Origin: Ghiorsea sp.
GTDB lineage: Bacteria; Pseudomonadota; Zetaproteobacteria; Mariprofundales; Mariprofundaceae
NCBI GenBank assembly: GCA_026982535.1
Contig: JALSGX010000003.1
Span: 1-34,692 of the forward strand
Direction of reading: 5' to 3'
Length of the DNA: 34,692 bases
Each line of letters opens with the position of its first letter. The first letter of the stretch is position 1. Below the pieces are notes generated by a model that did not search any database, was not told the DNA's origin, and was given only the letters and a program-made list of their open reading frames with translations. Made by a program: the position numbers and the translations under genes. Positions 7,694 through 14,559 of this stretch are shown here, piece after piece.

Positions 7694-8478
7694 TAGACAG
7701 CCATCTCTTTTTTACCCTGTATATGGGTATTATTGGTTTACTTGTGGGCAGCTTTGCCAATGTGTGTGTTTACCGTATTCCCAGAGGTGAGTCGGTTGTG
7801 AAGCCACGAAGCAAATGTCCATCATGCAACACTGAAATCGCTTGGTATGATAATATCCCGGTTCTTTCTTGGTTATTACTAGGTCGCAAATGTCGCCATT
7901 GTAAAAAGCCTATTGCTTGGCGCTACCCTTTCTTGGAACTTACCATGGGGTTTGCTTGGGGTGTTATCGCATGGTTTTATCCTGCAACTGAAAACCCTGT
8001 ACTCCTAGCCCAGGCTATCATCCTCTTTTCCCTGCTCTGGATACTCACGCTGATTGATATAGAAACATTTTTGCTACCCAATGCCCTGACATTCCCTGGC
8101 ATTGCCATTGGGCTTCTTTTTTCATGGCAGCAGGGCTATATCCTTGATGCGCTGCTTGGCGCAATAGCGGGGTATGGCATTTTTTGGCTGGTTGCCAAGT
8201 TATTTTGGTTGGCAACTGGGCGCGAAGGTATGGGGCAAGGTGATTTCAAGCTTCTGGCTATGCTTGGCGCATTTATGGGCTGGCAAGCGCTACCCTTTAT
8301 TATCATGCTTTCTTCAATCACCGGTGCAGTCATCGGCTCTTTAGCATTACTGCTGGCCAAAAAAGGTTTACGAGCAGAGATTCCCTATGGTCCTTATTTG
8401 GCAGCCGCTGGTATGATTTGGTTCTTTTGGGCAAAACCCATACTTCATTGGTATCAGGGCTTGATAGGTTTAGCGTGA
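7690..8478 (+). CDS. pilD: Prepilin peptidase / N-methyltransferase PilD
   Basis: CPSC...CRHC zinc pairs, LTLIDIETFLLPN and GMGQGDFKLLAMLGAFMGW active-site regions. Confidence 0.93.
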   Translation: MIDSHLFFTLYMGIIGLLVGSFANVCVYRIPRGESVVKPRSKCPSCNTEIAWYDNIPVLSWLLLGRKCRHCKKPIAWRYPFLELTMGFAWGVIAWFYPATENPVLLAQAIILFSLLWILTLIDIETFLLPNALTFPGIAIGLLFSWQQGYILDALLGAIAGYGIFWLVAKLFWLATGREGMGQGDFKLLAMLGAFMGWQALPFIIMLSSITGAVIGSLALLLAKKGLRAEIPYGPYLAAAGMIWFFWAKPILHWYQGLIGLA

Positions 8479-9071
8479 AGTTTTATGGATTAACAGGCGG
8501 TATTGGCGCTGGAAAGTCAACTGTCGCTTCAATGTTTGCAAGGCAAGGTATTCCAGTTTTAGACTTGGACAAAGTTGGACATAAGCTTCTTCAAGAAGAT
8601 GCAACACTACAACAGCAGTTGATGCTGGTCTTTGGTGATAATATTCTAGTCAACGGCAACATTGACCGCAAAACACTGGCTCATCAAGCCTTTCAATCCG
8701 AGAAACACACACAACAACTCAATCAAATCATGCACCCTGCTATTGTTCGATACGAAAAACAGTGGCGTAAAAGCGTCACTGCAAGATCCAAATCAACCTT
8801 CGCTATCATTGAAGCATCAGTATTGATTGAATCTGGTGGTGTAAGCCGAATGGATGCTTTGATTGTGGTACTTGCGAATAAGCATATTCGTCAGCAGCGT
8901 GTAGCCGAGCGTCAAAACTACGATGCTTTAACCTTTGATAACATCATCAAACAACAAACCAATGATGAGGTTAGGAAACAACAAGCTGATATGGTTATTG
9001 AAAATAATAAAGGTTTAACATGCCTAAAAGAGCAAGTTCTTCATCTTTATCAAAAACTAAACAACGGTTGA
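8475..9071 (+). CDS. coaE: Dephospho-CoA kinase
   Basis: YGLTGGIGAGKSTVASMF P-loop, DLDKVGH. GTG start at 8475 overlaps the pilD stop by 4 nt; the listed start at 8418 is upstream of this. Confidence 0.9.
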   Translation: MKFYGLTGGIGAGKSTVASMFARQGIPVLDLDKVGHKLLQEDATLQQQLMLVFGDNILVNGNIDRKTLAHQAFQSEKHTQQLNQIMHPAIVRYEKQWRKSVTARSKSTFAIIEASVLIESGGVSRMDALIVVLANKHIRQQRVAERQNYDALTFDNIIKQQTNDEVRKQQADMVIENNKGLTCLKEQVLHLYQKLNNG

Positions 9072-9200: not shown

Positions 9201-9218
9201 AAATGAACAAGCATAAAA

Positions 9219-9242
9219 AAAGGGAGCCCGAAGGCTCCCTTT
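9219..9242 (-). terminator. Rho-independent terminator of the minus-strand cytochrome-porin gene
   Basis: Minus strand reads AAAGGGAGCC-TTCG-GGCTCCC followed by TTTTTTT: GC stem, UUCG tetraloop, U-tract. Confidence 0.88.
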
Positions 9243-9278
9243 CTCAAATACCATACAAGTTACCCTGTGAAGGAAAAC

Positions 9279-10481
9279 TTAGAATACATATTCAAGCATA
9301 AGTGTGGTTTCAGTACCTGCTACTGCTTTACTAGTACCTTTAGCAGCTGTGTCTTTAACATTGATTTCAAGGTCAAGAACAACATTTTGTGCCAAGTCAT
9401 ACCAGCCACCAAGGATGACATTTGAGAAGTCACCAGTATTTGCATCATCAGATGTTGCAAAGTCATAACCCAAACGAACACCAGCAGCATGAGATAGACC
9501 AATGTTTACATAAGGCATAGCACCAGTGTAGTTAGTAGCGCCTACACCACCAACGATGATTGGCATGTAGAAGCCAATAGACATATCACCAACTTCACCT
9601 TGCATTTGAACATCCACTACAGCTTGAACATCAGCTTTTGCATTGGTTTGGTTAGTAGCTACTGGGTTCACAGGTGTTACGCTTGCATAAGTCACACCAA
9701 TGATAGTGTCAAAGCCAGCAATATCCGCAAGATAAGCAGCACGCAAATATGGAGAATCCATCATTTCAACGCCACCATTACCCGCAGCATAACCACCAGC
9801 AGGCGTAATCAAACCAGCTGCAAAGTAGATAGAGTCAGCCATATAGCCATATACACCTAAACCAGTTGCGCCACCGTGAAGTACGCCACCACGAAGAGCT
9901 TGCGCACGCGTTTGAACACCACGAAGGTTACGAGAGATTGCATTGGAAGGATCATTGAAGATAGATGGTGCACCCAATGCATCAGTTGTACCTACTGCGA
10001 TACCAATGATGCCTGAATCCAAATCCATCACATAGGCAAATTTACCACCAAGCATTTCACCAGAAATTACATCCCATTCTTGGAAGCCACCAGCATGTTC
10101 ACTGATACGACCACCGAACAACAATGCAGACTCATCTGGCCATTGAACGCCAGTATCAGCAGTGCCTACCGCACCACCTTTAGGCAAATCGCCAGAACCA
10201 CTTGAAATACGCGCTTTCGTTAATAGTGACGCATTGAAGAATGCAGGCAAAGACAAGTGATCATCTTCAAGCAAGTCTTGAGATGTATCGCGGAATGCGT
10301 TCATCCGGAATTCACGACCCATAGCGGCAAGGCGTGGAATGGTTTGGAAATGGCAGTTCAAGCAAGCAGCGCCAGTTTGGCGTGCAAATGCAGGCACAGC
10401 TTCAGAAGTTGTTGGTGCAACTGAAACAGAAGCAACAGCAGCAACAGCTAAAGAAGCAGCAGAAAGAATAATTTTCTTCAT
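9279..10481 (-). CDS. cyc2: Cyc2-like fused monoheme cytochrome c / outer-membrane porin (putative Fe(II) oxidase family)
   Basis: Signal peptide, then AVPAFARQTGAACLNCHFQTIPRLAAMGREFR with one CxxCH near the mature N-terminus; remainder is beta-strand-like and ends LMLEYVF with terminal Phe as in outer-membrane barrels; ~400 aa. Confidence 0.72.
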   Translation of the reverse strand: MKKIILSAASLAVAAVASVSVAPTTSEAVPAFARQTGAACLNCHFQTIPRLAAMGREFRMNAFRDTSQDLLEDDHLSLPAFFNASLLTKARISSGSGDLPKGGAVGTADTGVQWPDESALLFGGRISEHAGGFQEWDVISGEMLGGKFAYVMDLDSGIIGIAVGTTDALGAPSIFNDPSNAISRNLRGVQTRAQALRGGVLHGGATGLGVYGYMADSIYFAAGLITPAGGYAAGNGGVEMMDSPYLRAAYLADIAGFDTIIGVTYASVTPVNPVATNQTNAKADVQAVVDVQMQGEVGDMSIGFYMPIIVGGVGATNYTGAMPYVNIGLSHAAGVRLGYDFATSDDANTGDFSNVILGGWYDLAQNVVLDLEINVKDTAAKGTSKAVAGTETTLMLEYVF

Positions 10482-10511
10482 GTTTTTAACATCCTTTTTT
10501 TTATTTTTTTA

Positions 10512-10528
10512 TTTGTCTTGAAGACAAA
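10512..10528. promoter_or_regulatory. Perfect palindrome TTTGTCTT-G-AAGACAAA upstream of the cytochrome-porin gene
   Basis: 8-bp perfect arms around one base, 31 bp upstream of the ATG at 10481, in the divergent cyc2-like/purL region. Confidence 0.5.
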
Positions 10529-10722
10529 CGATAAGCTTGCGTGTATCAATGTTGTGTAAGCACACAGCATCAACACATCACATGGCTCGGAAGCATGGAG
10601 TTGGCTCTGATATTCGTCAACCAAGCTATCAAGGATATGTGTATTTATGCCACATCACATATTTGGCATTTGACTTGTAACTCAGCCTCGAATTTTTTTG
10701 GTTTATGTTTAGGCTTGCGCCC

Positions 10723-13700
10723 ATGTCTACCGTATCTTCTTCCTTTATTCTTGTTTTCAAAGGGCAACATGCCTTATCACCCTTTCGCCAACACAAGCTC
10801 TCTGCAAGCGCTCAATGTGATGTATCGGCGTCTTACATTTACATGATTGAATGCCGCCCTGATTGGTCTGATGATGACAAGCATCAATTGGACAAGCTGT
10901 TGGGATACACAACCCTGCCTTTTTGTGATAAACACGCTCTTCTTGTCACACCACGCATCGGCACCATTTCACCATGGTCTTCCAAAGCTACAGATATTGC
11001 CAACATCTGCGGCTTGGATGCGCTGATTCGCATTGAACGCGGCATGGTTTATCATATTGAGGGCAACCCTGATAACATCATACCCTTGATTCATGACCGA
11101 ATGACTGAGTCTGTGTTGTTCAGCACCGATGATGTACATCAACTCTTCCAACACCAAACACCGAAGCCATTGGTTCGGATTGATATACACAATGGTGGTC
11201 GAAGCGCTTTGGAAGCTGCCAACACTGAGCTTGGGCTTGCTCTTGCAGATGATGAAATAGACTACCTGCTGGATAGCTTTCTGACATTAAAGCGCAACCC
11301 AACTGATGCTGAATTGATGATGTTTGCCCAAGCCAACTCTGAACATTGTCGCCATAAAATATTCAATGCTGATTGGCGTATTGATGGCAACAATAGCGAT
11401 ATATCCTTGTTTGGCATGATTCGACATACACACAACACCTCACCTGAGGGCACAATTGTGGCTTATGCTGATAACGCATCCATTATTAAAGGCTTTAAAA
11501 GCAAACGCTTCTACCCTGATAGCGACAAAGTGTATCACATCCATGATGATACCACCCATATCTTGATGAAAGTAGAAACCCACAACCATCCCACTGCTAT
11601 TTCACCTTTTGCCGGTGCTGCCACAGGCTCAGGTGGTGAAATCCGTGACGAAGGCGCAACAGGCATAGGAGCCAAACCCAAGGCTGGTCTATGTGGGTTC
11701 ACAGTGTCCAACTTGCAAATCCCAGGCTTCAAGCAACCTTGGGAAAAAGATCATGGAAAGCCTAATCGTATATCCTCAGCATTGGATATCATGATTGATG
11801 GTCCTATAGGTTCAGCTGCGTTCAACAATGAATTTGGCCGCCCCAATATCAATGGTTACTTCAGAACCTATGAGCAAGAGGTTGATGATGAAATCAAGGG
11901 TTACCACAAGCCTATTATGCTGGCAGGTGGCGTGGGCAACATTGATGCAAGGCATGTGGCGAAAGATGATGTGCCTGCAGGTTCATTGATTATCCAACTC
12001 GGTGGTCCTGCCATGTTGATTGGCTTGGGTGGCGGTGCGGCTTCCAGCATGGATACAGGCGCCAACGCTGAAAACCTCGATTTTGATTCAGTACAACGGG
12101 GCAATCCTGAAATGGAACGCCGTTGCCAAGAAGTGCTCGACCGTTGCTGGCAGTTGGGTGATGATAACCCTATCTTATTTATTCATGATATTGGTGCGGG
12201 TGGGCTTTCCAATGCTGTACCAGAGCTAATTCATGATGCAGGGCGAGGTGGTCAATTCGACTTGCGTCAAGTGCACAACATGGAATCTGGCATGAGCCCT
12301 ATGCAAATTTGGTGCAATGAAGCCCAAGAACGCTATGTACTTGCTATTGCACCTGAATCTCTGGAAACTTTTACCGCTATATGTAAGCGAGAGCGTTGTT
12401 TGTTTGCGGTACTTGGCAAAGCAACCCATGATGGTCATCTGCGCGTTGAAGATTCACTGCTGGGTGACCCCCCAGTCGATTTGCCTTTGGAAATACTGCT
12501 GGGCAAACCACCTAAAATGCTGCGTAATGCCACACACCGTACCATCAAACCAACACCTCTGCCCGCCCATATCAATATTAAAGAGGCCGCATTTAGAATA
12601 TTGCGCTTACCCTCGGTTGCCAGTAAGGAGTTCCTTATCACCATTGGCGACAGAACAGTGACAGGTCTGGTCGCAAGAGACCAAATGGTTGGTCCATGGC
12701 AAGTGCCCGTATCTGATGTTGCGGTCACAGCTACTGATTTCAGCAACTATACGGGTGAAGCCATGGCAATGGGCGAACGAACACCCATCGCAATACTGGA
12801 TGCGCCTGCATCAGGGCGCATGGCGGTGGGCGAAGCTTTAACCAATATTGCAGCAGCAAACATTAAGAACATAAGTGACATCAAGCTATCTGCCAACTGG
12901 ATGGCAGCCTGTGGACATGATGGTGAAGATGCCGCATTGTATGACACAGTTCGCGCTGTGGGCATGGAATTATGCCCTGCATTGGGTATCTCCATCCCCG
13001 TAGGCAAAGACTCTTTGTCCATGAAATCTTCATGGATAGATGATGAAGGTGAAAAACAAGTCGTTTCACCTGTATCGTTGATTGTATCCGCATTCTCACC
13101 TGTATGCGATATTCGTAAAACATTAACGCCGCAACTACGCACAGAACACAATGAAACAGACTTGATACTGATTGATCTGGGGCAAGGCAAAAATCGCTTG
13201 GGAGGCTCATGTTTGGCACAAGTCTATGCCTCCACAGGCACTACAACACCAGACCTTGATGACCCAAGCATGTTGATTAACTTTTTTAATAGCATACAAA
13301 GCTTAAATAATAATAAGCTGCTTCTTGCCTATCACGACCGTTCAGATGGTGGCTTGTTCACAACACTAGCAGAAATGGCATTTGCAGGGCGCGTTGGATT
13401 AAATATTAACCTCGATAACTTGGGTAGCGACGCACTATCCATTTTGTTTAATGAAGAGCTAGGAGCTGTACTACAAATCAAGCGTAGTCATCGTCAACAG
13501 GTTTTTGACCTGCTGCATCAACATAGGCTGAGCCATGTTTCACACATTATCGGCAGCACCAATGATGATATGCAGCTTCATCTTATGTTGAATGAACAAA
13601 CCATTTTGAATGAACATATTTTAGTCTTACAGCAAGCATGGAGTGAAACATCATGCAAACTTGCCAGCTTGCGAGACAACCCTGAATGCGCGCAGCAAGC

Positions 13701-14559
13701 TTTTGCCGCCATCACCAACCCTGATGATCACGGCCTGTTTGCTGATTTAACTTATAATGTATCTGAGGATATTACCGCGCCATTTATTCATACCACACGC
13801 CCTCAAATAGCAGTATTGCGTGAACAAGGGGTGAACGGACAAGTTGAAATGGCGGCGGCTTTTGATAAAGCGGGCTTTACATCTGTTGATGTACATATGT
13901 CTGATTTGATTGAAGGGCATGTTTCCTTGGCCAACTTCCAAGGCTTGGTCGCTTGCGGCGGCTTCTCCTTTGGTGATGTCCTAGGGGCAGGGCGTGGTTG
14001 GGCAAGTTCAATTCAATTCAACCCTAGAGCTGCTGATGAGTTTCAAGCCTTTTTTCATCGTGACAACTCTTTTGCCTTGGGTGTGTGTAATGGTTGCCAA
14101 ATGATGAGCCAGCTCAAAACCATGATTCCTGGCGCAGAGCATTGGCCAACTTTTGAACGCAATGTTTCCGAGCAATTTGAAGCCAGGTTATTGATGGTTG
14201 AAGTGTTAGACTCTCCATCAATTTTCACACAAGGTATGGAAGGCTCCAAATTGCCACTGGTGGTGGCGCATGGTGAAGGAAAAGCAACATTTAAGGATAC
14301 CCAACAACAAGACAAAGTATCCGCATACCTGCGCTATATTGATGCCAATGGTAACCCTGCAAACACTTACCCTGCAAACCCCAATGGATCCCCAGGGGGG
14401 CTAACCGCATTCACCAATCATGATGGTCGCTTTAATATCATGATGCCACACCCTGAGCGACTGTTTAGGAATTGTCAGTTTTCATATTATCCAGAACGCC
14501 AACATGAAGAAGGCGCATGGCTTCGCATGTTCCAAAATGCACGGGTTTGGTTGAATTAG
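10723..14559 (+). CDS. purL: Phosphoribosylformylglycinamidine synthase (single-chain large form)
   Basis: Motifs [36 protein letters not shown]-terminal glutamine amidotransferase [10 protein letters not shown]. Start placed at [22 protein letters not shown]. Confidence 0.95.

Follow-up and report, generated by a model that had tools for sequence, protein, structure and literature searches.

The gene examined here raises two questions: is a divergent fused cytochrome-porin from a Ghiorsea genome an outer-membrane Fe(II) oxidase, and how did it come to encode a mature protein so unlike that of other Ghiorsea? Cyc2, the family concerned, is the best current marker of neutrophilic iron oxidation, and both its annotation and structure-function work on it are hard because the barrel diverges fast. 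Cyc2 oxidises Fe(II), with a heme potential near +208 mV in the protein of Mariprofundus ferrooxydans PV-1 (PMC8406198), and its signature is AXPXFAR[Q/K][T/Y]-CXXCH-PXL (Keffer et al. 2021, PMC8406198). Cyc2 of Cluster 1 and of Cluster 3 has been described from Zetaproteobacteria (McAllister et al. 2020, PMC7029218). The Favne study found both clusters in Ghiorsea and suggested that cyc2 is exchanged between community members (PMC10734525), and transfer of Cyc2 is frequent overall (PMC12442345). In the literature that we searched there was no description of mutually exclusive Cyc2 classes at one locus, nor of a mosaic of leader and mature protein; the variant genes may well already stand unremarked in published trees.

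The locus lies in a stretch of 34,692 nucleotides (the window) of an assembly from a deep-sea iron bacterium of the Zetaproteobacteria, 1.94 Mb in 298 contigs, 97.9% complete and 8.4% contaminated. Its features are listed in Table 1.

Table 1. Features of the cyc2 locus, in window coordinates
Feature	Position	Strand	Remarks
coaE (dephospho-CoA kinase)	8418..9071	+	convergent neighbour; marker of the Ghiorsea cyc2 slot
Intrinsic terminator GAGAAAGGGAGCCTTCGGGCTCCCTTTTTT	9216..9245	-	kept in ordinary and variant Ghiorsea
3'UTR	9246..9278	-	first part is GTTTTCCTTCACAGG
cyc2, minority (variant) class, P0001	9279..10481	-	400 aa fused mono-heme cytochrome-porin
Predicted 16-strand beta-barrel, aa 81-399	9285..10241	-	AlphaFold2 and Foldseek
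Strand 5-6 loop, aa 166-205, porin L3 position	9867..9986	-	class signature DALG...FNDPSNAxSRNxRGxQxR
Cytochrome segment PAFARQTGAACLNCHFQTIPRLAAMGREFRM	10302..10394	-	
Heme-binding motif CLNCH, residues 40-44	10350..10364	-	
Signal-peptide codons 1-28	10398..10481	-	cleavage after A28 inferred from sequence
Shine-Dalgarno-like AGGATG	10490..10495	-	sequence
5'UTR hairpin GTTTGTCT[TCA]AGACAAAT	10511..10529	-	stem search
purL (FGAM synthase)	10705..14559	+	divergent neighbour; slot marker

A mono-heme member of the Cyc2 family

The original prediction described a signal-like N-terminus, a single CxxCH and a C-terminal Phe, and proposed a Cyc2 family member; the open reading frame, which runs from ATG to TAA, has each of these features, and the family assignment is supported. 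The gene stands alone, with coaE convergent, purL divergent and the terminator downstream at 9245-9216. Judged by eye, its N-terminus is hydrophobic and signal-like and ends in PTTSEA before the putative cleavage site and VP after it, followed by DDHLSLPAFFNASLLTKARI. Most of about 78 related genomes have homologues with the same N-terminus, so these features are not chance. P0001 also carries the published motif (AVPAFARQTGAACLNCHFQTIPRL), and at 400 aa it exceeds the 365 aa that, together with a signal peptide, mark Cyc2 proteins (PMC8406198). It has one heme motif only, unlike MtrAB, PioAB and MtoAB, in which an MtrB/PioB-type porin (TIGR03509) works with a separate decaheme cytochrome. Searches of Pfam and NCBIfam gave no usable match for P0001, Pfam gave almost none for its relatives, and a PDB sequence search with P0001 gave no match.

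A barrel was predicted by structure modelling. The AlphaFold2 model of P0001, built with ten sequences, places helices at the N-terminus, about the heme motif, and 16 strands between residues 81 and 399; its confidence is modest (pLDDT 62, pTM 0.59, heme domain below pLDDT 60). Foldseek matched it to general porins and to OprP (2o4v, E 5e-9), which agrees with a published likeness of PV-1 Cyc2 to OprP/OprO, and a model of an ordinary Ghiorsea Cyc2 gave the same architecture and the same matches.

Two Cyc2 classes in Zetaproteobacteria

The segment after the heme had been thought to depart from the usual Cyc2 pattern. It does, with MGREFRMNAFRD where ordinary zetaproteobacterial Cyc2 have GRaFKxxxfTDVG, and the departure sets eight sequences apart as a class of their own. 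The variant class is characterised by NCHFxxIPRx and DALG...FN[DN]PSNA or FQDPSNA, the ordinary class mostly by CHFQsFPxL and GFG...GQHGG, and from the heme segment on P0001 is 25-33% identical to ordinary zetaproteobacterial Cyc2. Among 78 genomes of the class Zetaproteobacteria, the ordinary class is present in about 50 and the variant class in eight, and no genome has both (hypergeometric P 1.3e-4 for 8 versus 50 genomes, a value that ignores shared ancestry). The carriers, most of them MAGs, span four genera (g1, g2, g3 and g9). They are the window genome (G000, its gene here called WIN), UBA1536 (G008), NORP148 (G009) and G001 in the Ghiorsea group (g1); G016; OFTM395 (G017), which belongs to g3 together with the ordinary-class genome G097; and Mariprofundus sp. 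KV (G032) and G081, with Mariprofundus forming g9. A genome-wide scan that required exact short peptides, and is of limited reach, found no variant class outside Zetaproteobacteria.

In a tree of the barrel, the variant class is monophyletic (support 100/100) on a long stem, and the WIN barrel lies nearer to members of g3 and g9 than to G009 and G001 of its own genus group. Ordinary zetaproteobacterial Cyc2 also scatter by genus in this tree, Mariprofundus falling in several clades, which suggests that exchange may extend beyond the variant class. A wider tree included the f82 family, which we take to be betaproteobacterial-type and probably from Gallionellaceae, six other proteobacterial homologues, and proteins of the ARKY type. 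Here the variant class stays separate and groups with ordinary and f82 Cyc2 against the six homologues and the ARKY type, as expected for a Cyc2. The ARKYGMxCxxCHTMFP (Cluster 3-like) group excludes P0001, which has RQTG and aligns with that group over about 65 residues only. The best wider tree pairs ordinary zetaproteobacterial Cyc2 with f82 (SH-aLRT 85, or 92 when the ARKY type is left out); a pairing of variant with ordinary is not rejected (AU p 0.137), and one of variant with f82 is not clearly rejected (AU p 0.056). At positions diagnostic of the classes, two residue states of the variant class, E117 and K147, are strongly shared with f82, and K89, L169 and R184 occur in about half of f82.

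Strands 5 and 6 of 16-strand porins are joined by a long connection, the constriction loop L3. The loop at this predicted position is the clearest difference between the two classes: the variant loop carries a mean net charge of +1.8 and the ordinary loop one of -0.9, and where the ordinary class has a nearly invariant His, P0001 has Arg. P0001 keeps residues that are fixed in all Cluster-1-like sequences, for example E135, G295 and the heme segment.

One chromosomal slot in each of three genera

The window gene occupies exactly the place of cyc2 in other Ghiorsea, the slot coaE-cyc2-purL. As far as contigs reach, the wider flanks ntrC-pilD-coaE and purL-FHA-PP2C surround variant genes in WIN, G008 and G009 and ordinary genes in G007, G005, G014 and others (gene names outside the window are our reading of the sequences, as distinct from database matches). 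In Mariprofundus, variant (G032, G081) and ordinary genes (G074, G080, G083) have the same neighbours, a lipoprotein gene and trp genes, and in g3 one slot is common to G017 (variant) and G097 (ordinary). In three genera, then, the variant gene sits in the genus's own cyc2 slot.

The recurrence of this arrangement bears on whether the gene could be an assembly chimera or come from a contaminant contig, as might be feared of a MAG in 298 contigs with 8.4% contamination. The same arrangement is found independently in UBA1536, NORP148, OFTM395 and Mariprofundus sp. KV, and the flanking gene order and the leader of the window gene are those of Ghiorsea; the independent genomes refute a chimera in substance, and we give it next to no credence.

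A mosaic of leader and mature protein

The affinity of the WIN gene changes along its length. Over the signal-peptide codons 1-28, ordinary Ghiorsea alleles match it at a mean DNA identity of 95% and variants of other genera at 83%, in contrast to the rest of the gene, where the order is reversed: 67% versus 80% over codons 29-60, and 35% versus 67% over codons 161-200. The other variants were compared in the same way. Over codons 1-28, five of the eight are nearest to ordinary alleles alone. In four of these the identity is 95-99% (WIN 95%, G017 to G097 98%, G008 to G014 99%, G009 to G005 98%); the nearest sequence to G016 is another genus's ordinary allele, at 79%. G001 is tied, and each of the two Mariprofundus variants has the other as its nearest sequence. 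Over codons 29-62 the nearest neighbour is a variant in all eight. At the other end, the three readable Ghiorsea variants have TAAGTTTTCCTT[CT]ACAGG 3' of the stop codon, after which the genus-wide terminator resumes. The first part of the 3'UTR, GTTTTCCTTCACAGG, is common only to WIN and the two other readable Ghiorsea variant genes, and is the putative end of an exchanged tract. Affinity thus switches at both borders, and the exchanged unit would therefore consist of the mature protein and a short stretch 3' of it.

Horizontal replacement is the simplest reading of this mosaic. We consider it probable that the gene is the resident cyc2, encoding an outer-membrane Fe(II) oxidase, whose mature part was replaced horizontally by recombination within conserved flanks. 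The mature coding sequence and about 30 nt past the stop would have come from a second Cyc2 class and displaced the ordinary one by homologous recombination, with crossovers probably within or close to the conserved leader and ahead of the terminator.

The main rival is that both classes were present in an ancestor as tandem duplicates, that gene conversion kept their leaders alike within each genus, and that one copy was later lost. The variant class is deep enough for such a history, its placement with ordinary zetaproteobacterial Cyc2 not being rejected (AU p 0.137), and tandem cyc2 copies with identical leaders do exist in G097. Duplication would, however, need reciprocal loss to recur in four or more genera together with concerted evolution of the leader, it has to account for the presence of both classes together in none of 78 genomes, and the WIN barrel is no closer to its own genus than to other genera. 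We regard it as unlikely. The tandem copies of G097 (genus g3; L087, 7027-8238 and 10307-10825) are both of the ordinary class and have identical signal peptides.

Replacement by recombination has to be read with the nature of the leader in mind: this is strongly constrained in sequence, so its similarity could partly reflect selection and not crossover. In nine ordinary Ghiorsea-group genomes cyc2 opens with the same 14 codons at the nucleotide level, while the neighbouring purL is 75% identical, and the signal-peptide codons are similarly conserved in Mariprofundus cyc2. Such frozen codons could reflect either constraint on synonymous sites or frequent conversion. The idea of silent cassettes was considered and rejected: each of 13 Ghiorsea-group genomes has a single copy of the leader, and none of them yielded a donor copy carrying it.

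The 5' untranslated region

A hairpin of 6-9 bp precedes some 40 of 52 zetaproteobacterial cyc2 genes (e.g. L074, L099, L094). It ends roughly 24-32 nt upstream of the start codon, and AAT comes next. Its arms covary across genera with many compensatory changes, and its loop is often UNCG-like or CACG. The stems were found by a search of each sequence and were chosen for pairing, so their significance is optimistic. RNAalifold on a MAFFT alignment of the cyc2 5' regions gave no structure, probably because loops of differing length shift the arms out of register, and no Rfam family matches the hairpin. It is possibly an mRNA stabiliser.

A broader reading, to which we give clearly less than an even chance, makes cyc2 a cassette locus. 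A genus-specific frame of 5'UTR hairpin, ribosome site, frozen signal peptide and terminator would receive distant mature Cyc2 proteins that are swapped between genera; as the classes differ in the pore-constriction loop, exchange might retune the form of iron oxidised or evade phage or predation directed at a surface protein.

Function of the variant allele

The variant allele most likely does the same job as the cyc2 that it would have replaced, because the replaced gene is a known Fe(II) oxidase and a further Cyc2-like gene is absent from five of the six near-complete carriers, Mariprofundus sp. KV among them; slot, family and lack of alternatives together make Fe(II) oxidation the most likely activity. 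The signal peptide would direct the protein to the periplasm, and one c-type heme would be attached at CLNCH. With the 16-strand barrel in the outer membrane and the heme domain on its periplasmic side, Fe(II) would enter the barrel and its electron would pass via the heme to periplasmic carriers. MtrB/PioB-type porins (TIGR03509) were found neither in the window genome nor in any of ten tested zetaproteobacteria, by a search that was positive in 12 of 60 f82 genomes as a control.

The window genome itself lends less weight to the argument from a sole oxidase. A search of it for a second cyc2 had been advised, and the answer is divided: ordinary zetaproteobacterial Cyc2 is absent, but two further Cyc2-like genes, P0002 and P0003, are present. 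Either of these could in principle be the Fe oxidase of this genome, which would leave P0001 as the divergent paralogue that the original prediction had envisaged, with another substrate or role such as another metal or reduced sulfur. The distinct post-heme segment and strand 5-6 loop, with Arg for the ordinary His, are compatible with this. The proposal nevertheless fares poorly and is, in our judgement, very unlikely: the genome has no ordinary-class cyc2, the gene sits in the conserved cyc2 slot, and none of the eight carriers has the ordinary class. Further, the variant is the sole Cyc2-like gene of the five near-complete carriers, and its E117 and K147, and in part K89, L169 and R184, are states of f82 Cyc2s.

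P0002 and P0003 (L002:1501-2841 and L003:1501-2838) are fused cytochrome-porins of the ARKYGMxCNSCHTMFPQL type, each of 445 aa. They are probably the 'Cluster 3' Cyc2 of McAllister et al. 2020 (PMC7029218), and the two copies may reflect a mixture of strains in the MAG.

As natural alternatives for a single locus with a shared leader, the two classes offer a ready-made comparison. Iron oxidation is likely to depend on what both have kept (the heme segment, E135, R125, G295, QN365-366 and others), and the strand 5-6 loop, which differs, is a candidate for tuning of the iron path. Cyc2 trees can conflict with species trees even within a genus, since the gene would have been transferred only in part, and such conflict bears on the dating of iron oxidation from Cyc2.

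Comparison with known systems

Cyc2 of M. ferrooxydans PV-1 (Cluster 1, PMC8406198), also from Zetaproteobacteria, resembles P0001 in its signal peptide, single CXXCH, AXPXFARQT...PXL motif and predicted 16-strand porin, a comparison made by published motif and fold instead of alignment. P0001 differs in being of a distinct class from the heme segment on, with another strand 5-6 loop and IPR in place of FPx after the heme. P0002 and P0003 share with it the signal peptide, the FAR-CXXCH N-terminus and a porin-sized C-terminal part, but can be aligned with it over the first 65 or so residues only, fall in a separate long-branch clade and have a sigma-54-type response regulator gene upstream. The f82 Cyc2s have the TDALG-type start of the loop and the E117 and K147 states in common with P0001, and differ in their leader, in the loop sequence after DALG and in forming their own clade (99% support). 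Closest in setting are the ordinary Ghiorsea Cyc2 (L063, OFTM145; L074, G007), which have the slot, leader, terminator and architecture of P0001 but a mature protein of the other class, with the loop GFG...GQHGG where P0001 has DALG...FNDPSNA.
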